The notes under the pieces are model-generated. The model made no database searches. It was not told the origin of the DNA and saw only the letters and a list, made by a program, of their open reading frames with translations. 64,000 bases of DNA from a virus. Shown piece by piece: positions 11,932 to 59,390 of this stretch (position 1 is the stretch's first letter; each line of letters opens with the position of its first letter). Location of the stretch: the IMG/VR virus record IMGVR_UViG_3300034170_000023, positions 1-64,000 of that record; one strand, given 5' to 3'. Made by a program: the position numbers and the translations under genes.

Positions 11932-13854
11932 TTGGAAATTGCAAAGTATGTTGTCGGTGTAGGTTTTAGCTTCCCAAAAGCTGAGATAGAGAAGCTTGAC
12001 GCAATATTGAAGTCTACAGAATCAAAACTCGCAGCCTTTAGTATATCTAAGTTTAAGGTTAATGATACAACCCTTAAAATGGTTTTAGGTACAGCACTCG
12101 ACTTAGCTAGTAAACAAGTGACTTTTGAGATTTCTAAGTTTGCAATTGATCAATCTCACCTAAACGCTACTATGGCACGAGCAATAAATCTTGCCACCAA
12201 CTCTGTACATCCAGTAGTTAACCCACATATTGTGATGGGTGCGAGAGCCACTAATGCTCCAACAACATCCTCTAAAACTGCAAGGAATGCTGTAGCTGGT
12301 GGGATGATTGGTGGTGGACTTTCTAGAATGTATGGACCTATTGCTGCATTGGCATTAGGTGGTTACGGACTATCAAGTCTCAACAAACGTAACCAAGCTG
12401 TGCAGGCAGCAGAACTGACATCTGAAGCTGTTGCCACATCTAATGGGCTGACACAAGAACAAGGTGCAGGGGCTTTTGACTGGCTGAAGAAGCTTGCTAA
12501 TAAGACTGGCTTCTCTTACATGGGAGCTGCTGACCAGTATAACGGGTTCCTAGCTAACTCTTTGAGCACAGGTTCATCTTTACAGCAATCCCAGAAGATG
12601 TTCAAGGGTATTGCTGAATACTCCCGAGTGATGCACCTTACACCTTATGCTCAGAAGCTTGTATTCAAAGGCTTCACTGACATGATGGGTAAGGGGAAGG
12701 TGATGTCGGAGGAACTCACCAAACAATTAGGTAACTCCCTTCCCGGTGCCAAACCTATCTTTGCTGCTGCATACCAAGAGTTCACAGGTGGTAAGCTCAC
12801 AGGTCAACCAGCAATGGCAGCCTTGTTAGATGCAATGAAGAAAGGTAAAGTATTATCTGCTGACATCATTCCAATTGCTACACGGATGATGGAAGAGAAG
12901 GCAGCCCCTACCATTGCACATGCTTCTGAGACTTCTCAGTCGGAAGAAGATCGGATGACCAACTCAGTGAATGATTTGGCTGTGTTAGCAAACAAAGCTG
13001 GTGTTGAAGAGGGTTTTGCTCGCATCTTCCGGTCTATTTCAACTGGACTAGATGAATCAGGTACACTAGTAACAAAGCTTGCTGAGGGATTCAACGAGGC
13101 CACTATTGCAGCATCTAAGCTTTTGTTATTTCCTCAGTCATTTGAAAGAGCTTTAGATGGCAGAGACAGCCTTGTTGCTGATTGGCTTGGTGTAGATAAG
13201 ACTACACAAATGATTGAAGATTGGTCACAGATTAAAGTGTTGTTTGATGATATCGCTAAAGCTGTAGGGTCTACGGAATGGTCACCTACCCTTAAATCCA
13301 CAGCAGATGAAATTGCACAGATTATGCACGGAATTGCAGAATTCCAAGTGTGGAAGCAACGTACAGGTGACACAGCCCAGCAGATAAATCAAGATGAATT
13401 TGATGCTGGTGGAGGCTCTGGTCTATCTCAGTTTAAAGGGCTTATTAGGTCAAATTGGCATACATTCAAAAATACCATAATGCCTTGGTCAGCAGATGAA
13501 CGCAACGCTGAGTATGGTGCTCAGAAATTAGCTGACAGTGGTGCCAATACTGATCCTTTTATGGGTGAGAGTGGATTAGATACCAAAGCTTACTGGAAGT
13601 ACACCCAAGACCAAGCTAAAGATTACTCGTTAAACCAGTTTGGCAGGAATTCCTATGGTGTATCCCTAGAAGAGTCTGCAAACACTAAATCTGGTGCAGA
13701 TACCTTTAAACAAGGTGACTCACAAGATAAGACCAATAATACATTCTATATGGAATTCCATATGAGTGGTGAGCCTGCTGTCATGGAAGACTGGTTCAGA
13801 ACTAGCCTAACAAAAGAAATCGCTAAAGTAATGCCTAACCTCCCGGAGAGATAG
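11932..13854 (+). CDS. Tape measure protein
   Basis: 640 residues, TTG start at 11932 after AAGGAAG. N-terminal ~100 residues are helical; ~135-165 is a hydrophobic Gly/Ala-rich stretch (GGMIGGGLSRMYG, IAALALGG); the middle matches the tape-measure N-terminal domain pattern (GKGKVMSEELTKQLGNSLPGA, KGKVLSADIIPIATRM). It sets tail length: at ~1.5 angstrom per residue, 640 residues suggests a tail near 95 nm. Follows the frameshifted chaperone, as expected. Confidence 0.88.
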   Translation: MEIAKYVVGVGFSFPKAEIEKLDAILKSTESKLAAFSISKFKVNDTTLKMVLGTALDLASKQVTFEISKFAIDQSHLNATMARAINLATNSVHPVVNPHIVMGARATNAPTTSSKTARNAVAGGMIGGGLSRMYGPIAALALGGYGLSSLNKRNQAVQAAELTSEAVATSNGLTQEQGAGAFDWLKKLANKTGFSYMGAADQYNGFLANSLSTGSSLQQSQKMFKGIAEYSRVMHLTPYAQKLVFKGFTDMMGKGKVMSEELTKQLGNSLPGAKPIFAAAYQEFTGGKLTGQPAMAALLDAMKKGKVLSADIIPIATRMMEEKAAPTIAHASETSQSEEDRMTNSVNDLAVLANKAGVEEGFARIFRSISTGLDESGTLVTKLAEGFNEATIAASKLLLFPQSFERALDGRDSLVADWLGVDKTTQMIEDWSQIKVLFDDIAKAVGSTEWSPTLKSTADEIAQIMHGIAEFQVWKQRTGDTAQQINQDEFDAGGGSGLSQFKGLIRSNWHTFKNTIMPWSADERNAEYGAQKLADSGANTDPFMGESGLDTKAYWKYTQDQAKDYSLNQFGRNSYGVSLEESANTKSGADTFKQGDSQDKTNNTFYMEFHMSGEPAVMEDWFRTSLTKEIAKVMPNLPER

Positions 13855-43340: not shown

Positions 43341-43427
43341 CCAAACAAAAGATAAATTTACTTGCACCTGAAGTCTGAGATATCAGACAATTCACTTATG
43401 AATTTGAGTGACAACGAGGAAATAAAA

Positions 43428-44666
43428 GTGCAGACTAAAATTGAGCTTCTTGATTCAATCATGGGAAGTGGTAAGACACAGGGTGTGATTCAGTGGATGC
43501 TGAACAATCCTCAGAACAAATACCTGTATGTTAGCCCAATGCTGACAGAAGTAGAAGAACGTATTCCTACAGCTTGTCAAGCACTGGAATTCACATACCC
43601 TTGCACAGAAGAATACAAGACTAAGGGCCAACACCTTCTTAAGCTTCTTGAAGAGGGCTGCAACGTTTCCTTTACACACTCGTTGTTTACTGACTTGACA
43701 AAGCAACACCTTGCACTGATACGGAAACATGAATATGTGTTGATTGTAGATGAAGAAGTAGCTTTCATTGAGCCGTACAAAGGTAACTACAGTCGTGATG
43801 ATATTGTATCGCTTGAGAAAGCTGGTCACATCAGGGTAGAAGAAGACAATCTTGGTCGTGTAGTTTGGCAGTGGTATGATGATAATGAAATGAATGACAC
43901 TGCATACAGCAAGCTTAAGAGAATGTCTGATCTAGGCATGTTGTACTGTGCTAAACGTGATCGTAAGATTATGGTTGTCCACTTACCAATTGAGTTAGTA
44001 CAGTCTTCAAGACGTGTTATCCTTCTTACCTACCTCTTTAAAGGCAGTGTGATGGAATCCTTTATGGATCTTAAAGGGATTGAGATTGTACCATTTGCAG
44101 AAGTAAGACCACTTAAATCAACAACTGATGTACTTAGTAAAGCTAAAAGCCTTATTACTTTTATTGATACAACTACTACAAAAACAGTTTCTAATCTCTC
44201 TATGTCTTCCACTTGGTACAGTAAAAATGCTACTACAGCAGATTTAGAAAAGGTTTCAAATGCTATCTTTTCTGTTTACCGTAAGTTTGGAGATAAAGAA
44301 AGTTTTATCTTTACAGCTCCTAAGTCTCTGGCTGACTACCAATATGTAAAAGATGAAAAACTTAAACGTAACATTATACACAAGAAGATGCCTAAAGACG
44401 TAGACTGGATTTATTGTGGTACTAAAGCAACTAATATGTGGTCACATAAGTCTATTGCTGTCCATGCTTATAATAGATTTGTAAATACAGCTATCAAGGC
44501 TTACTTACAGGATTATGGTACACCACCAGATGATGATATGTTTGCTTTATCTGAGATGGTACAGTGGATTTTCAGGACTTGTATCCGCAATGATGAGCCT
44601 TTACAACTGTGTATTTTGAACAACAGAATGAAAGGTTTGCTTTGTAATTGGCTTAATGGAAATTAG
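43428..44666 (+). CDS. Helicase-like ATPase, copy 1
   Basis: 412 residues. Walker A LDSIMGSGKTQG (~12), Walker B-like LIVDEEVAFIE, and a C-terminal MVQWIFRTCIR that looks like helicase motif VI. GTG 43428 is chosen because GAGG precedes it and because the second copy (58164-59390) aligns from exactly this point; an upstream TTG (43362) would add a poor 22-residue tail. Role unknown: an SF2-type helicase or motor that may help origin or host-DNA handling. Identical order of motifs in both copies. Confidence 0.72.
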   Translation: MQTKIELLDSIMGSGKTQGVIQWMLNNPQNKYLYVSPMLTEVEERIPTACQALEFTYPCTEEYKTKGQHLLKLLEEGCNVSFTHSLFTDLTKQHLALIRKHEYVLIVDEEVAFIEPYKGNYSRDDIVSLEKAGHIRVEEDNLGRVVWQWYDDNEMNDTAYSKLKRMSDLGMLYCAKRDRKIMVVHLPIELVQSSRRVILLTYLFKGSVMESFMDLKGIEIVPFAEVRPLKSTTDVLSKAKSLITFIDTTTTKTVSNLSMSSTWYSKNATTADLEKVSNAIFSVYRKFGDKESFIFTAPKSLADYQYVKDEKLKRNIIHKKMPKDVDWIYCGTKATNMWSHKSIAVHAYNRFVNTAIKAYLQDYGTPPDDDMFALSEMVQWIFRTCIRNDEPLQLCILNNRMKGLLCNWLNGN

Positions 44667-50565: not shown

Positions 50566-50934
50566 ATGACTAACTCTAAAGTTGTGGCTTGGCTTATCGA
50601 GGGGCACGGACGCTCCTCTGTGTTCACTACAGAACAACCTTGGGCACTTGAGGATGAGAATTACAAAGTAACTCCCTTGATTGGTATGTCTGAGAGCGCA
50701 CCAATACATTCCTTGACAGACGACACACAAGAACGTATTAGTATTATGGAAGAACTCTATGAGCTAATGCAGCAAGAAATAGACGAGTTGAAGGAGCGAC
50801 TAGAAGCTGCTGTTGAGGTGATTGAAGTTGTGGAAGAGTTCTCAGCCAAGAAGAGTGATAATTTCATGGAGAACAAAGCTACCTTACTTCTCATCTCAGC
50901 AGCTTGCCGGGATTGGTTGAAGTCAAGCGAATAA
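50566..50934 (+). CDS. Coiled-coil hypothetical protein
   Basis: 122 residues after AAAGGATGGCGAC. Helical region with heptads (ISIMEELYELMQQEIDELKE, RLEAAVEVIEVVEEFSAKKS) and a small aromatic end. Unknown function, own promoter. Confidence 0.55.
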   Translation: MTNSKVVAWLIEGHGRSSVFTTEQPWALEDENYKVTPLIGMSESAPIHSLTDDTQERISIMEELYELMQQEIDELKERLEAAVEVIEVVEEFSAKKSDNFMENKATLLLISAACRDWLKSSE

Positions 50935-50953: not shown

Positions 50954-50989
50954 AGGAGCCTTGACTGGCTCCTTTTTCTTGTCTACAAT
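50954..50989 (+). promoter_or_regulatory. Fused terminator-promoter
   Basis: Hairpin AGGAGCC (50954-50960) TTGACT (loop) GGCTCCT (50967-50973) then TTTTT: a terminator for the previous gene. Its loop is exactly TTGACT, and 17 bases later lies TACAAT (50984-50989). So the -35 box of the next promoter is in the loop of the terminator hairpin. Confidence 0.7.
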
Positions 50990-51019
50990 AGCCACATACA
51001 AACCAACTGGAGATACAAA

Positions 51020-51271
51020 ATGAAAACTATCCTGATCTTTGATCAACTCTTTGAACGTCCTGTAAGCTTTCGTGTTGTCGAAGGTGATTACTCTTTCCTC
51101 AATGAAGCGTACGTCAACTCAGTGGAGACGTCAGAGGAAGACCAAGATGTACTGATGGGACTCTTGTACAAGGACGAAGAAGGAAACCTGCACGATGATT
51201 GGCTGTCAGAGTTCCCTGTTGAACAAGTAGCAGCGAACACTAAAGTTATCGTGGTTGGGTTTCTTCCGTAG
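51020..51271 (+). CDS. Small acidic protein
   Basis: 83 residues with CTGGAGATACAAA before ATG. ILIFDQLFERPVSFRVVEGD and SVETSEEDQDVLMGLLYKDE; acidic alpha/beta. Unknown function. Confidence 0.55.
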   Translation: MKTILIFDQLFERPVSFRVVEGDYSFLNEAYVNSVETSEEDQDVLMGLLYKDEEGNLHDDWLSEFPVEQVAANTKVIVVGFLP

Positions 51272-51290
51272 ACTTTGTTAGCTTAAACTA

Positions 51291-51316
51291 ATCCCTCCTC
51301 GCCCGAGGGATTTTTA
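51291..51316 (+). terminator. Intrinsic terminator
   Basis: ATCCCTC (51291-51297) CTCGCCC GAGGGAT (51305-51311) then TTTTATT. Perfect 7-bp stem. Confidence 0.8.
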
Positions 51317-51351
51317 TTGCCTAGAATTTAATAAATAATTGAAAAGAGATG

Positions 51352-51408
51352 TTGACGAGGGTGGGTGATAGGACTAGAATCACCCCAAACAGGAAGCGAA
51401 TAGCTTCT
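51352..51408 (+). promoter_or_regulatory. Promoter with leader stem-loop
   Basis: TTGACG (51352-51357), 17-base spacer, TAGAAT (51375-51380). About 13 bases past the -10, GAAGC GAATA GCTTC (51393-51407) forms a leader hairpin, a design shared with 54427 and 56805. Confidence 0.7.
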
Positions 51409-51431
51409 AATACAGACAAAGGAATACTCCA

Positions 51432-51617
51432 ATGATCACTATAAAGACACACGCCATGAAAGCTATGATCCAGAAACAGTTCCCTTGGGCAGAAGACATT
51501 GAACTAGACTTCACAATTGATGAGACTGGTAAAGAGACTATCAAAGTCACTTTGAATGATGAAGGAACACCTCGGGAATTTATTTTGACGATTGACTTGA
51601 AGGAGGTGGAGCTATAA
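51432..51617 (+). CDS. Small protein
   Basis: 61 residues, AAAGGAATACTCCA upstream. THAMKAMIQKQFPWAEDIEL then TIDETGKETIKVTLNDEG: a small alpha/beta fold. Joined to the next gene by a one-base overlap. Unknown function. Confidence 0.55.
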   Translation: MITIKTHAMKAMIQKQFPWAEDIELDFTIDETGKETIKVTLNDEGTPREFILTIDLKEVEL

Positions 51618-51820
51618 TGTCCAGTCAAGTGATGTGCAACTGTAGGGTGTGCGGAATAAAGCCCGGTATCCGTACTGGTCTGAGCGGCGTCGCTCATGTT
51701 GGTAACCTGTTCTTATGCTTCTTGACAGGCTTGTTATGGGTGTTGCCGTACCTACTGATTTGGGCTTGTAGCTATAAGGTACAGTGTATGTCGTGCGGAC
51801 GCTACGCACGAAGGTTCTGA
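51617..51820 (+). CDS. Small membrane protein with zinc-like Cys pairs
   Basis: 67 residues. N-terminal NCRVCG, membrane segment LFLCFLTGLLWVLPYLLIW, then VQCMSCGRYARR: CxxC pairs on both sides of the membrane segment, like LITAF-type zinc-binding membrane proteins. Function unknown, topology suggests membrane-associated. Confidence 0.6.
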   Translation: MSSQVMCNCRVCGIKPGIRTGLSGVAHVGNLFLCFLTGLLWVLPYLLIWACSYKVQCMSCGRYARRF

Positions 51821-51839
51821 CGTAAGAGTTGTAAATAAT

Positions 51840-51861
51840 CACCCCTTAGATGGGGCATTTT
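51840..51861 (+). terminator. Intrinsic terminator
   Basis: CCCC TTAGAT GGGG (51842-51855) then CATTTT. Near copy of the hairpin at 49790 and, like it, in front of an HNH-like gene. Confidence 0.5.
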
Positions 51862-51884
51862 GCCATTAAATAGGATGGTTTATA

Positions 51885-52634
51885 ATGGCTGTTGTGCGTA
51901 AAAGTTACAAAGTTGGAGATGTTTGGCCGACTAAATCAGGGGTAGATGTTGAGATTATAAAGACCTTTAAGGGCTCTCAGAGGGTTGTGATTAAATGGTT
52001 AGATGAGTACCAGCATACAACAGAAATTTATCAGTGTGCATTACCAAGATCTAACCTTAAAAATCCATATGAGAGGACTATCATCGGTGTGGGGTTCCTA
52101 GGGACTAGTTATGCAGCACAAAACCCTCTGAAATTTAAGAGGGAGAAGATTGTTTGGAGTGGTCTATTTAAGAGGGCTTACGATGAGAAAACTCTGATAG
52201 AACGCCCCGGATACGCTGGTGCAACAGTGAATGCTGGCTGGCACGAGTTTGGAGGTTTTGTAGACTGGACAGAGCAGGCTGTTGGTTGGAAAAACAAAAA
52301 TTGGCATGTAGACAAGGATCTTATTTTAAGAGGTAACAGGGAATACGGACCAGAAACTTGTTGCATGTTGCCACCTGTGGTTAACTCCGCATTGTGGGTA
52401 AGAGAACACATTTTGCCTCCGGGAGTTACTAAACTTCCAGACGGGTACTACAGGGGCGGTTTTTATGAAGATGGAAAGGTACAACAAAAGAGGTTTAAAA
52501 CACCCGAAGAAGCTTTTGAATTTTATAAGCCACTGAAGGAGGGTAGAATAAAACAACTAGCAGATGAGTATAGATATCAGATTGATCCTAGAGCCTATGA
52601 TGCATTGATGACTTGGGAAATTGGTCTTGATTGA
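51885..52634 (+). CDS. HNH-type endonuclease, AP2-like
   Basis: 249 residues. Same family as the gene at 49827: KIVWSGLFKRAYD, then VDKDLILRGNREYGPETCCM, and a late segment GYYRGGFYEDGKVQQKRF like an AP2 module. N-terminal extra part (VGDVWPTKSGVDVEIIKTFK) could be an added DNA-binding module. GTG/ATG start with ATAGGATGG. Inserted between two small-gene units. Confidence 0.8.
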   Translation: MAVVRKSYKVGDVWPTKSGVDVEIIKTFKGSQRVVIKWLDEYQHTTEIYQCALPRSNLKNPYERTIIGVGFLGTSYAAQNPLKFKREKIVWSGLFKRAYDEKTLIERPGYAGATVNAGWHEFGGFVDWTEQAVGWKNKNWHVDKDLILRGNREYGPETCCMLPPVVNSALWVREHILPPGVTKLPDGYYRGGFYEDGKVQQKRFKTPEEAFEFYKPLKEGRIKQLADEYRYQIDPRAYDALMTWEIGLD

Positions 52635-52645
52635 AAATAAACCCT

Positions 52646-52683
52646 AAAGAGCCCTTGCGGCTCTTTCTTTTTGCTTGTACAAT
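52646..52683 (+). promoter_or_regulatory. Fused terminator-promoter
   Basis: AAAGAGCC (52646-52653) CTTGC GGCTCTTT (52659-52666) then CTTTTT terminates the HNH-like unit. TTGCGG (52655-52660) lies across the loop and stem, and 17 bases later TACAAT (52678-52683) follows: the same fused layout as at 50954. Confidence 0.7.
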
Positions 52684-52721
52684 TACCTCATCGAAACAAC
52701 AAAGCTTCAGGGAGACACAAC

Positions 52722-53354
52722 ATGACACGCATGTACATACAACCATCATTCCTAAATAGCTGTGAAGAGCACGGCTTATGGTCTGGTGGAAATGACCAAT
52801 ACCGTGGCGACAGGTCTGTTGACTTCAGCACATTTGATAAGAATGGTCGTGCTCGTGTTGAGGCTTTCTCTGATGCTGCACTTGAAGCCAACAAAGAGAA
52901 AAGGAAAACATCCGTTCCATTAAAGGATAGGATTTTACCACAGGCACGGCGCGTTGCTGTCCTAACTGAGCAGCTTATTGAGTTGGAACAAGTGTACAGG
53001 TCTGGTAATATGTCTATCAATGAATACTCCACATTACGTGCAGTGTTGGTAAACAAACGCAACAGAAGTCAAGTGTTGTATGAACGTGCAATCTCTGTTA
53101 AAGAGCCTTCATATGATGACCTTGAAGAGTGTGCCGCTACATACAAGAATACATCAACCAAATCAACCTATTCATGCGGGGAAAGTGGCTCTGAAAACGA
53201 TGATAGCGGTCAACCTATGCCATCGTGGCTCTCAAGCATTAGCAATGAAAATAGCCTGAAAAATACGCTAATAAAAGCTTGCAAGGTTGGCGAGACGTTG
53301 GTAAGATGGCACCAGAAAGCAAGAAACTACATAAACGAATTGAAGGCACTTTGA
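52722..53354 (+). CDS. Hypothetical protein
   Basis: 210 residues from ATG 52722 (CAGGGAGACACAAC upstream; a longer frame is not needed). Helical middle (QARRVAVLTEQLIELEQVYR), S/T/N-rich linker, C-terminal helix (LIKACKVGETLVRWHQKA). Unknown function. The largest non-HNH product of this stretch. Confidence 0.55.
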   Translation: MTRMYIQPSFLNSCEEHGLWSGGNDQYRGDRSVDFSTFDKNGRARVEAFSDAALEANKEKRKTSVPLKDRILPQARRVAVLTEQLIELEQVYRSGNMSINEYSTLRAVLVNKRNRSQVLYERAISVKEPSYDDLEECAATYKNTSTKSTYSCGESGSENDDSGQPMPSWLSSISNENSLKNTLIKACKVGETLVRWHQKARNYINELKAL

Positions 53355-53355
53355 A

Positions 53356-53541
53356 ATGACTGAACAATTGACAGCTAACGAAAAAGCTTATGATCTTGGC
53401 TACTCTGATTGTGTAGAAGGTAATTTCATGATTAGCTATGAAGACTGGTGTCAAGAAGGTAGGGAAGGATCTCATTCAGCTTATAAAGCTGGGTACGAGG
53501 ACTGTGAACAAGACAATCCAGAATGCAGTGAAGAGGAATAG
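53356..53541 (+). CDS. Small acidic protein with repeated motif
   Basis: 61 residues. Two copies of a motif: AYDLGYSDCVEGN and AYKAGYEDCEQDN, i.e. A-Y-x2-G-Y-x-D-C-x-(x)2-N; a tandem duplication inside the gene. Acidic, Cys-containing. Unknown function. Confidence 0.55.
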   Translation: MTEQLTANEKAYDLGYSDCVEGNFMISYEDWCQEGREGSHSAYKAGYEDCEQDNPECSEEE

Positions 53542-53545
53542 TACA

Positions 53546-53737
53546 GTGATCATCCAACTACCAAACCACACTAATAATTCTGTGTCAAGCTTTGACAGCT
53601 TCCCCCTTCAATACTCTGACGATTGCTCATCAGCTCTGTTACAATGTGTAGACGCTGGGAAGGAGTGGTTGAAGCAGTGGTGCTGTGTTGAGATGCGGCA
53701 GAAGGCTATTTTTAATTCTATTAATGGTGAAGTGTAA
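53546..53737 (+). CDS. Small protein
   Basis: 63 residues from GTG 53546 (GAGGAAT upstream). IIQLPNHTNNSVSSFDSFPL, then CSSALLQCVDAGKEWLKQWC: three Cys. Overlaps the next ATG by one base. Unknown function. Confidence 0.5.
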   Translation: MIIQLPNHTNNSVSSFDSFPLQYSDDCSSALLQCVDAGKEWLKQWCCVEMRQKAIFNSINGEV

Positions 53738-53913
53738 TGAAACTTACAGACCTTGAACACGCTATACAAGAAATCAAAGAACACTTTGGCGAGCATATGG
53801 CTCAAGCTGACATCTTCTTTGATGACACATTTGGTGGAGAGTTGGTGATTGTTGTTACAGAAGACGTACTAGATCGAATCTGCCCCATGCCTACATTGGA
53901 AATCGGTAAATGA
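53737..53913 (+). CDS. Small acidic protein
   Basis: 58 residues. LTDLEHAIQEIKEHFGEHMA and GELVIVVTEDVLDRICPMPT. TAATG overlap upstream and ATGA overlap downstream. Unknown function. Confidence 0.6.
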   Translation: MKLTDLEHAIQEIKEHFGEHMAQADIFFDDTFGGELVIVVTEDVLDRICPMPTLEIGK

Positions 53914-54044
53914 AACCTATTAAATTCAATATGTCAAACAAAGATTACACGTATTCCCTTGAAAAGAAACAACAACTAAAGCAGCATAAGAGCTTGCGAG
54001 ATGCTAAGAAAGGGCGTAAACAAGTGTGGCAGGAGGCTGAGTGA
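53910..54044 (+). CDS. Small basic protein
   Basis: 44 residues, ATGA overlap. Lys/Gln-rich helix (NMSNKDYTYSLEKKQQLKQH, LRDAKKGRKQVWQEAE). May bind nucleic acid by charge. Unknown function. Confidence 0.55.
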   Translation: MKPIKFNMSNKDYTYSLEKKQQLKQHKSLRDAKKGRKQVWQEAE

Positions 54045-54187
54045 TGAACAATAAACAGAGGGATTGGGCACGACAGTACAATTGGTTTTATTGCAGTGAC
54101 TCCAAAGCAATATGGGTTAAAGATTCTGATGGGCAAGTCTTGAAATTTACCAGTATGAGGGCACTGAAGTCGTGGACGACTCTATAA
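54044..54187 (+). CDS. Small Trp-rich protein
   Basis: 47 residues. NKQRDWARQYNWFYCSDSKA, then WVKDSDGQVLKFTSMRALKS. Coupled to both neighbours. Unknown function. Confidence 0.6.
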   Translation: MNNKQRDWARQYNWFYCSDSKAIWVKDSDGQVLKFTSMRALKSWTTL

Positions 54188-54384
54188 ACCCTCGCTGGCA
54201 AGCATTCTGTAATCTTTGCTTAAAGGATGGAAAAGCTATTGACAAGTTTGAATACATGATTTGGGTGTGGGAGATGAAACATCTTTACCTAGATTCAATA
54301 GGTGACTCGCAGTCATCCTCTATTCATGGAACTATTTCTGATCATGCTGCGTTCACAAAGTTTATTGAAGAATATGTGAAATAA
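54172..54384 (+). CDS. Small protein
   Basis: 70 residues with a GTG start inside the end of the previous gene. DSINPRWQAFCNLCLKDGKA and WVWEMKHLYLDSIGDSQSS. Last gene of this unit, followed by a promoter. Unknown function. Confidence 0.5.
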   Translation: MDDSINPRWQAFCNLCLKDGKAIDKFEYMIWVWEMKHLYLDSIGDSQSSSIHGTISDHAAFTKFIEEYVK

Positions 54385-54388
54385 AGGG

Positions 54389-54442
54389 TTGACGTGTGTT
54401 CTGTATGGGTTAGAATAGACACATAGGAAGCGAGAACGCTTC
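54389..54442 (+). promoter_or_regulatory. Promoter with leader stem-loop
   Basis: TTGACG (54389-54394), 16-base spacer, TAGAAT (54411-54416). Leader hairpin GAAGCG AGAA CGCTTC (54427-54442) follows. TAGAATAGACACAT is shared with the unit at 56790. Confidence 0.75.
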
Positions 54443-54466
54443 TGCGGACAGAAGAGAGATAAGATC

Positions 54467-54625
54467 ATGATCAGCGAAGTCAAAGAATTATATGAAGTGG
54501 CTAAGTCTTTCGTTTCAGGTGACGAAGAATGCTCTATTAAGCAGCTTGATGATGCGTTTCTAGTGATTGAACTGGTAGAAGATGGGGCTTATGAAGAGGC
54601 CTTCAAGGTTGGTATGATTTACTGA
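54467..54625 (+). CDS. Small acidic protein
   Basis: 52 residues after AGAGAGATAAGATC. ISEVKELYEVAKSFVSGDEE then KQLDDAFLVIELVEDGAYEE. Single-gene unit with its own promoter and leader hairpin. Unknown function. Confidence 0.6.
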   Translation: MISEVKELYEVAKSFVSGDEECSIKQLDDAFLVIELVEDGAYEEAFKVGMIY

Positions 54626-54634
54626 AAATAAAGA

Positions 54635-54663
54635 TTTACAGAGGTTCGAAAGAGCCTCATAAT
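54635..54663 (+). promoter_or_regulatory. Sigma-70-like promoter with hairpin spacer
   Basis: TTTACA (54635-54640), 17-base spacer, CATAAT (54658-54663). The spacer holds GAGGTTC GAAA GAGCCTC, a stem (one G.U) with GAAA loop (54641-54658), which may double as terminator of the previous short gene. Confidence 0.6.
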
Positions 54664-54694
54664 CCTCCTACACCAACCAAACAGAGCTACCGCC

Positions 54695-54931
54695 ATGACA
54701 ACTTACACAGCCACACAGTTCATGTCCTCTCCAGCATTTGTAAAGATTGCTTTCGAGGATGCTATCAAATTGGTAGCTAAGACGAACAACCAAACTGTTG
54801 AATTGACTCAGAAGGCTTTCGATATGGAAGTAACAACTGTCGTTGTTGCAGTGGCTAAGCTTATGGTGAAAGCTGCCGAGGTATGTGCTCAGGAAGCTAA
54901 CCAAGGGACTTTGTGGAAGGCTAATGTATGA
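54695..54931 (+). CDS. Small helical protein
   Basis: 78 residues. TATQFMSSPAFVKIAFEDAI then LVAKTNNQTVELTQKAFDME; helical, mildly acidic. Four-base overlap with the next gene. Unknown function. Confidence 0.5.
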   Translation: MTTYTATQFMSSPAFVKIAFEDAIKLVAKTNNQTVELTQKAFDMEVTTVVVAVAKLMVKAAEVCAQEANQGTLWKANV

Positions 54932-55218
54932 CTACCTATGAACAACTCTACACATTCCTGAAACGACACTACAAACATAGTCGGTTTGAAGATAGGAACG
55001 CTTGGGGTGTTGGTTGGGGCGACTACTCAAAGTCAGTGACACGTCGCTACCTGACTCATCTAGATGCTAACGGCTCAGCCTGTATAACATGGCATGAAAG
55101 CAATACAGGGATGGAGGTAGTGTTTGATCAAGAATTGAACATCTTAAACCTTGATGTGACTCCTGTACAGCGTTCTAGCTGGTCGAGTGGTAAGGGTAAT
55201 TTGTCTGGTTTATTCTGA
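54928..55218 (+). CDS. Hypothetical protein
   Basis: 96 residues. YTFLKRHYKHSRFEDRNAWG, WHESNTGMEVVFDQELNILN and a Ser/Gly-rich end (QRSSWSSGKGNLSGLF). Unknown function. Confidence 0.55.
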   Translation: MTTYEQLYTFLKRHYKHSRFEDRNAWGVGWGDYSKSVTRRYLTHLDANGSACITWHESNTGMEVVFDQELNILNLDVTPVQRSSWSSGKGNLSGLF

Positions 55219-55242
55219 TAGGATTGTTTTGATAATTAGGTG

Positions 55243-55271
55243 TAGACAAGCATGGTGGGATGTTAGATAAT
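55243..55271 (+). promoter_or_regulatory. Sigma-70-like promoter
   Basis: TAGACA (55243-55248), 17-base spacer, GATAAT (55266-55271). Weaker than its neighbours; drives the gene at 55318. Confidence 0.5.
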
Positions 55272-55317
55272 AATGCCATCAGGGCGAGTAAGCTCACAAC
55301 ATACAGGAAGCTTTCAA

Positions 55318-55713
55318 ATGACCACTATCAAACAATCAACAATCGAAGCTATTCATGATAGCAAGAATATCCTTGTTAACTTCTGTAAGTATGGCACTCA
55401 CACAGGTGCAAAGACTAAAATCAGCATGACATTCCATGACACCACTTATGCCTACACAGTAAGCTGCTACGCTGTAATTTCCCATCAGAAATACCTTTCC
55501 TTGCATTCTTACAATGACATTGTTGAACTGTTGAAACCAACAGAATATGACGCTGTAATGACTCACAAGGAGACGGGAGAGGACTGTATTCATAGCAACC
55601 CATCAAAGGTTAAAGAACTCTTCAAAGTATTGTGCAGCGAGCTGGCAGAGCGTACAGATAGCGTATATCTGGATATGTATCAATCATTCAGCAAGAAGCC
55701 GAAAGCCTTATAA
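55318..55713 (+). CDS. Hypothetical protein
   Basis: 131 residues from ATG 55318 (CAGGAAGCT upstream). TIEAIHDSKNILVNFCKYGT and YLSLHSYNDIVELLKPTEYD, TKETGEDCIHS-like block. No family recognised. Confidence 0.55.
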   Translation: MTTIKQSTIEAIHDSKNILVNFCKYGTHTGAKTKISMTFHDTTYAYTVSCYAVISHQKYLSLHSYNDIVELLKPTEYDAVMTHKETGEDCIHSNPSKVKELFKVLCSELAERTDSVYLDMYQSFSKKPKAL

Positions 55714-55732
55714 TAGTTTAGAAATAAGTGAA

Positions 55733-55768
55733 AAGACCCCTTTACAGGGGTTTCTTGCGTGTTATACT
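55733..55768 (+). promoter_or_regulatory. Fused terminator-promoter
   Basis: CCCC TTTACA GGGG (55737-55750) then TTTCTTG terminates the previous gene; its loop TTTACA is the -35 box, and 16 bases later lies TATACT (55763-55768). A leader hairpin AAGAC...GTCTT (55778-55797) follows. Confidence 0.75.
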
Positions 55769-56197: not shown

Positions 56198-56226
56198 TTT
56201 ACAGGGTGTTGGTGAAGCATTATAAT
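56198..56226 (+). promoter_or_regulatory. Strong sigma-70-like promoter
   Basis: TTTACA (56198-56203), 17-base spacer, TATAAT (56221-56226, consensus). CC and GG flank the -35 box. A 40-base leader leads to the next gene. Confidence 0.8.
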
Positions 56227-58163: not shown

Positions 58164-59390
58164 TTATTTCTTAGTCATTCCTAGCCACTGTTTAAGTAGT
58201 AATTCCATACGCTTATTCAACACACAGAGTGTTATAGGTTCATCATTTCTGATACGACTTCTCCATATCCATTGTATCATTTCAGACAATGCAAACTTAT
58301 CTTCATCTGGTGGTGTACCGTAGTCCTGTAAGTAAGCCTTGATAACAAGGTTAGGAAACCGATTATAGGCATGTACTAATACAGACTTGTGTGAGTAGAT
58401 ATTTGTTGCCTTTGCACCTGAGTATAGAAACTGGTCATCTGGTATATCTTTGTGTAGGATTGTTCGTTTACGCTTCCTTCCTTTGTCATCATACCTAGTG
58501 CCTACTTCCTTAGCTGATGTAAACAAGAATTCTCCTTTAGGTGCTTTCCTATACATACTGAGCAGTGCTTTAGAGATTAGATCCAGTTCTTCTTTTGATG
58601 CAGAGTTAGCATACCAAGTGAAAGACATAGACAGCTTCTTAACGGCTTTGGTTGTTCTAGTGTCTACAAAGTTAATAAGCCTCTTTGCTTTATCTTTGGT
58701 GTCTGTATCAGAGTAGTACCCTAAATCAGTAAACTTGGATATTTCCACACCTCTCATCTTCATAAAGCATTCCATAAGACTGCCTTCAAATAGATAGGTT
58801 AGGAGAATAGTACGTTTGGAACAGGACACTAACTCTAATGGTAGGTGGATAACCATCATACTCCTGTCCCTCTTTGCACAGTACAACATATCTAGATCAC
58901 ACAGTCTCTTCAGTTTAGAGTATACAGTGCTTCCCTCCATATCATCCCATGTCCAACTAACCTTTCCTAGATTATCAGTGTCAACAAAGATATGCCCGGA
59001 TTTCTCCAAGCTAACGATATCATCTTTACCGTACCCACCTTTGTATGCCTCTATGAAGTTTAGTTCCTCATCTACAATCAAAGTGTATTGGTGTCTTTTG
59101 ATCCAGTATAGGTGCTCCTTAGTCATATCTGAGAACAAAGAGTGAGAGAAAGATATGTTCTTTCCATCCTTTAGAAGTTCCAGAAGGTGTATTGATTTAG
59201 TTTTATATTCCTCTGTGTTAGGGTATGTGAACTCCAAGCTTTCACAAGCTGATGGTATTCGTTCTTCCACTTCACTCAGCATAGGACTTACATATAGGTA
59301 CTTGTTCTGTGGGTTATCTGTCATCCACTTAATGATACCTGTAGTCTTGCCGCTACCCATTACGGCATCCAATACTTCTATCCTAGTCAA
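58164..59390 (-). CDS. Helicase-like ATPase, copy 2
   Basis: 408 residues, about half identical to copy 1 by eye along the whole length. Walker A VLDAVMGSGKTTG, LIVDEELNFIE, and QWIWRSRIR are kept. TTG start at 59390, overlapping the upstream gene by eight bases. Having two copies on opposite strands suggests a duplication and later divergence. Function unknown; ATPase by motif. Confidence 0.72.
   Translation of the reverse strand: MTRIEVLDAVMGSGKTTGIIKWMTDNPQNKYLYVSPMLSEVEERIPSACESLEFTYPNTEEYKTKSIHLLELLKDGKNISFSHSLFSDMTKEHLYWIKRHQYTLIVDEELNFIEAYKGGYGKDDIVSLEKSGHIFVDTDNLGKVSWTWDDMEGSTVYSKLKRLCDLDMLYCAKRDRSMMVIHLPLELVSCSKRTILLTYLFEGSLMECFMKMRGVEISKFTDLGYYSDTDTKDKAKRLINFVDTRTTKAVKKLSMSFTWYANSASKEELDLISKALLSMYRKAPKGEFLFTSAKEVGTRYDDKGRKRKRTILHKDIPDDQFLYSGAKATNIYSHKSVLVHAYNRFPNLVIKAYLQDYGTPPDEDKFALSEMIQWIWRSRIRNDEPITLCVLNKRMELLLKQWLGMTKK

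Follow-up and report, generated by a model that had tools for sequence, protein, structure and literature searches.

The window analysed here, the whole stretch of DNA under study, comprises bases 1-64000 of an 83,207-base IMG/VR virus record (IMGVR_UViG_3300034170_000023). It encodes a tail sheath, a major head protein, a family B DNA polymerase (PolB), a primase/helicase and a ribonucleotide reductase. Its PolB is at most ~57% identical to those of named phages (Pseudomonas SYP, phiPMW, Acinetobacter phages, Nitrincola 1M3-16 and Rheinheimera Barba), and no match to it was found in T4 or RB49. Between about 50 and 57 kb lies a run of small plus-strand genes, many of them with their own sigma70-like promoter, and within this run three intergenic elements (sites 1, 2 and 3; Table 1) have a terminator-like hairpin and a promoter superposed, the -35 hexamer lying in the hairpin loop. 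No Rfam family was matched within the window, and the phage collection searched contained no nucleotide relatives of the region, near or distant.

Table 1. Coordinates of the three elements and their flanking genes in the window
Feature	Start	End	Strand	Details
Site 1, upstream gene	50566	50934	+	122 aa; homologues in related genomes G001, G009, G012
Site 1, terminator-like hairpin	50954	50973	+	AGGAGCC-TTGACT-GGCTCCT, then TTTTCTT
Site 1, -35	50961	50966	+	TTGACT, the hairpin loop; 5/6 match
Site 1, -10	50984	50989	+	TACAAT; spacer 17
Site 1, gene predicted to be driven	51020	51271	+	83 aa
Site 2, upstream gene	51885	52634	+	HNH endonuclease-like; phrog_953, E 3.7e-38
Site 2, terminator-like hairpin	52646	52666	+	AAAGAGCC-CTTGC-GGCTCTTT, loop CTTGC, then CTTTTT
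Site 2, -35	52655	52660	+	TTGCGG, weak; 3/6 match; final GG within stem
Site 2, -10	52678	52683	+	TACAAT; spacer 17
Site 2, gene predicted to be driven	52722	53354	+	210 aa; function unknown; orthologues in 12 relatives
Site 3, upstream gene	55318	55713	+	131 aa
Site 3, hairpin	55734	55753	+	AGACCCCT-TTAC-AGGGGTTT
Site 3, -35	55741	55746	+	TTTACA, spans loop and closing pair; 5/6 match
Site 3, -10	55763	55768	+	TATACT; spacer 16; TGT ahead; extended -10 TGTTATACT ending at 55768
Site 3, gene predicted to be driven	55818	55994	+	58 aa; DUF7170; PF23776, E 3.3e-14

The initial annotation had proposed that at these places the loop of the preceding gene's terminator hairpin is the -35 box of the next promoter, and the sites and boxes were confirmed at 50954, 52646 and ~55734. 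All three hairpins fold clearly better than shuffled sequences, with RNA folds of -13.4 kcal/mol at site 1 (z score -3.1), -10.5 kcal/mol at site 2 (z -3.0, a hairpin as good as those at sites 1 and 3) and -12.1 kcal/mol at site 3 (z -2.4). They resemble intrinsic (Rho-independent) terminators in having a GC-rich stem of 6-8 bp, a short loop and a T-tract, the last clear at sites 1 and 2, and differ from them in that the loop is here a -35 hexamer and the T-tract a promoter spacer. The hexamers are 16-17 bp apart, within the 16-18 bp of sigma70-type promoters, and the promoters of sites 1 and 3 score 10/12. Positions 56198 and 56768, which had also been put forward as instances, were rejected: their flanks are only 3-5 bp, and they are not counted here because they fold no more stably than shuffled sequences (z ~ +0.1) and have no T-tract.

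The layout is conserved and occurs much more often than expected by chance. The 83-kb genome was shuffled 100 times, preserving dinucleotides in 2-kb blocks, and searched for composites with a stem of at least 6, GC of at least 4 and a promoter score of at least 10/12; the shuffles held 0.01 such composites on average and never two, while the real genome has two (sites 1 and 3), and none on its minus strand. A comparison set of 18 genomes was then assembled from phiPMW and 17 related genomes, namely the window genome, 15 found via a capsid-protein search, and G001, a distant relative found by the hairpin pattern whose capsid protein is 30% identical. Around the 143 distinct strict terminators of this set, -35 hexamers (at least 5/6) peak sharply and in isolation at the loop (17 per 4-bp bin versus a mean of 3.9) and are almost absent from the hairpin arms. 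The -10 hexamers peak 20-23 nt past the loop centre (17 versus 3.4), as a 17-bp spacer would lead one to expect. The first nine genomes contain nine promoters that fall within +/-2 nt of loop centres, compared with 0-1 in shuffles.

Further clear cases are found at G001 76748 and 81200, G004 73837, G005 23643, G007 24577, G009 32005 and 68104, and G014 49182. The initial annotation had made its case depend on the presence of the pattern in relatives, and this was borne out, both by these cases and by the retention of site 1 in G001 and of site 2 in G009 and G016. The site 2 element precedes the orthologous gene in both of the latter genomes and recurs in a further contig (L409); one stem pair has gone from A:T to G:C with both sides changed, a compensatory substitution.

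Where intergenic gaps are short and crowded, terminators and promoters that are independent of each other could in principle coincide in this way. Lenient thresholds give 0.8 composites per genome by chance, and the outgroup phages (T4, T5, RB49, Felix O1, Barba1A, BS46, SYP, phiPMW and Nitrincola 1M3-16) show zero or one weak case each. Such crowding is nevertheless an extremely improbable account of the tight register (within 3 nt of the loop centre, at a 17-bp spacing), the conservation and the recurrence across phages.

This recurrence was measured by scanning IMG/VR for the motif GCC-TTGACN-GGC with TTTT and then TANAAT downstream, permitting a spacing of 12-21, with a scrambled loop as the control. 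The pattern matched 48 contigs, versus four (a single sequence family) for the control; the spacing is exactly 17 bp in 39 of the 48, and most stems have 7-10 pairs. For the TTTACA version, among the matches listed, 46 of 52 distinct sites with a stem of at least 6 have a spacing of 16-17 bp. The layout spans unrelated phages, including cyanophages and Enterococcus and Staphylococcus phages; named carriers are P-SSM4, S-T4 (three elements), a Mammaliicoccus phage and Enterococcus phage LM99. In the last (vB_EfaS_LM99, MH355583) the depositors' own annotation overlaps a terminator (12907-12930) with a promoter (12916-12944). Its geometry is the same as in the window (ACAACCC-CTTTACA-AGGGTTGT, then TATAAT), the differences being that it was annotated without comment and that the host is Gram-positive. 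A match in pf16 was rejected as a terminator only, having a TTGATA loop and no properly placed -10. Bacterial genomes gave 41 matches, and after dereplication the stem reached at least 6 in only 8 of 39, which makes the layout chiefly a feature of phages.

Some freshwater contigs carry the element in settings of their own. In L206 (11724-11839), L214 (8093-8208) and L222 (5964-6078) it is immediately followed by a tRNA gene that starts ~9 nt past the -10; the anticodon is CTA and ARAGORN calls tRNA-Pyl, the product being probably an amber suppressor. In many freshwater cases (L204, L205, L208, L226, L227, L235) an ATG lies ~6-9 nt past the -10, so that the mRNAs would be leaderless or almost so.

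An inverted repeat around a -35 box might instead be an operator on the DNA, bound by a repressor or activator, with no terminator involved, and the L044 and L047 families, palindromes around TTGAC with a -10 and no T-tract, are possibly repressor operators. For the elements studied here we regard this as highly unlikely. When the analysis was run in reverse from the promoters, with hairpins unselected, stems of at least 5 surrounded the -35 in 11 of 214 promoters with T-tract spacers (mean 2.3 and maximum 6 in 200 permutations), and in the window-type phages the excess of stems stands out only where the promoter spacer holds a T-tract. The arm sequences vary between sites while pairing is kept, unlike a protein operator. 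In the TTTACA set, again among the matches listed, the outer arm positions, which the search pattern left free, remain paired at 62, 60 and 56 of 72 sites; the highest values under permutation were 49, 45 and 50, and several kinds of base pair occur at these positions. This covariation is not a product of the search; it supports an RNA hairpin and argues against a protein operator.

Judged from sequence, then, each element of ~36 bp would quite probably serve two purposes, as intrinsic terminator of the upstream gene and as host sigma70-type promoter of the next small gene, and so give insulation between them. The loop would be the -35; the 16-17 bp spacer would consist of the 3' arm (6-8 nt), the T-tract and 2-3 further nt, so that in the 17-bp case the terminator fits exactly between the loop -35 and the -10. 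A polymerase arriving from upstream would form the hairpin and halt in the U-tract, short of the -10. One starting at the promoter would begin past the hairpin, and its RNA would therefore never contain it. With an upstream stop and its own start, the next gene would be expressed solely from its own promoter, over a minimal length of DNA. Insulating that gene from read-through is the likeliest role; we infer that termination and initiation do take place at the sites and that insulation has been selected for in a compact genome.

Several observations weigh against this interpretation. The promoter of site 2 scores 8/12 and is weak by consensus, its -35 being poor, and the T-tract of site 3 is weak. 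Only three of roughly a dozen promoters in the region are fused. With both boxes required to match at least 5/6, the association between a -35 in the loop and a -10 is modest (6/19 versus 14/124, Fisher p = 0.03), because several real-looking cases carry one weak box. The initial annotation's 'three clear cases' is consequently not upheld in full: sites 1 and 3 stand, and site 2, on account of its -35 (3/6), does not qualify as clear.

A different hairpin bears on the same question. In several relatives the gene after site 2 is preceded by one whose 5' arm is formed by the promoter spacer and -10, with the 3' arm, a T-run and the ribosome site following just before the ATG. Read-through RNA across this arrangement folds at -22 to -27 kcal/mol, versus -1 to -5 for RNA from the predicted start. 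Two different hairpins thus straddle the promoter of the same gene, which supports insulation.

This second fused layout, in which the predicted start site falls inside the loop of a long hairpin and the leader contains the 3' arm and T-run, immediately ahead of the ATG in the case of the first gene family, was seen before two genes: at G002 6888+ (L064), G013 63962- (L117), G001 83230+ (L063 3230), G014 57045+ (L096), G012 4876- (L134) and G011 83517- (L113) for the first, and at G007 51533-, G008 37868+, G010 80729+, G006 26007+ and G005 11184+ for the second. Over both genes the folding energy is -22 to -30 kcal/mol for read-through RNA and -1 to -10 for RNA from the gene's own start; there are 19 cases versus 7.6 permuted. 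It resembles the control of T4 gene e. The leaders of T4 genes e, soc and I-TevI (PMC3014915) are like the elements described here in that a hairpin is present only in read-through RNA and a local promoter starts inside or past it; they differ in that their hairpin masks a late gene's ribosome site. The window hairpins end upstream of the -10 and are not leaders of the gene e type, an arrangement found in the relatives instead.

The same layout could have another use, termination-coupled re-initiation, whereby a terminated polymerase remains DNA-bound, moves back by a few tens of bases and begins again at the promoter within the terminator, handing transcription over from gene to gene. In single-molecule work Escherichia coli RNA polymerase is usually retained on DNA after intrinsic termination (PMC6978380; PMC6978322), and in vitro it re-initiates at nearby promoters after 37% of terminations, or 55% with added sigma70 (PMC6978380). 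An overlapping promoter and terminator reduces the distance to a minimum and would favour such a process. Insulation or compaction alone, however, yields the same layout, and a terminating complex would also occlude the promoter; we think this use unlikely, if a good deal less so than an operator. Equally tentative is the broader idea of a widespread phage element whose loop -35 would recruit a polymerase that has just terminated to the next promoter; polymerase would then be passed on from gene to gene without leaving the DNA.

Among known systems the insulating terminator-promoter proposed here comes closest to the promoter-early stem-loop (PeSL) cassettes of T4-type phages (Arbiol 2010; Comeau 2014), as they are described in PMC4503421 and PMC5931544: these accounts have a terminator stem-loop and a host sigma70 early promoter among small, exchangeable genes, and the window elements likewise join a stem-loop terminator and a sigma70-type promoter in one intergenic unit. 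The geometry differs. In RB49, 13 of 37 strict terminators have a promoter behind them, with the -35 ~30-46 nt past the loop centre and outside the hairpin, so PeSLs are tandem, not superposed; at the window sites the -35 lies at ~0 to +1.5 nt from the loop centre. The carriers differ as well, the window phage not being T4-type (83-kb record; PolB relatives in phiPMW, SYP, Barba and Acinetobacter phages). A literature search covering work other than the original PeSL papers and most subscription journals found no account of a -35 in a terminator loop. The element is apparently an undescribed, compact variant of the terminator-promoter cassette.

PeSLs have been proposed to promote gene swapping, and the present elements might likewise be kept mainly as short homology for recombination of small genes. 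Site 1 and the element at 81200 in G001 agree at 43 of 45 nt, even though the proteins encoded upstream share only 37% identity and the genes downstream are unrelated. This was the sole junction-like case seen; the site 2 element travels with its downstream gene, and most elements share geometry and not sequence. A primary role as a mobile cassette is accordingly doubtful.

The product of 50566-50934 shows weak similarity to the Gabija anti-defence protein Gad1 (E 0.0026; 17.8 bits, below the cut-off of 27), and a search among the relatives found no homologue of the product of 51020-51271. A perfect inverted repeat without a T-tract (51365-51390, GGGTGAT-AGGACTAGA-ATCACCC) spans the -10 in the promoter that precedes the 51432 gene. 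On either side of the small-gene region, in opposite orientation, lie genes for paralogous phrog_2467 proteins of unknown function (43362-44666, plus strand; 58164-59390, minus strand).

For annotation, the finding means that promoters may hide in predicted terminators, and the elements could be of use as compact genetic parts. They also provide a natural system in which to ask whether re-initiation by recycled polymerase takes place in cells. For the phages themselves, stop and start signals can be superposed, beyond mere adjacency, and the same geometry occurs in phages of very different hosts.

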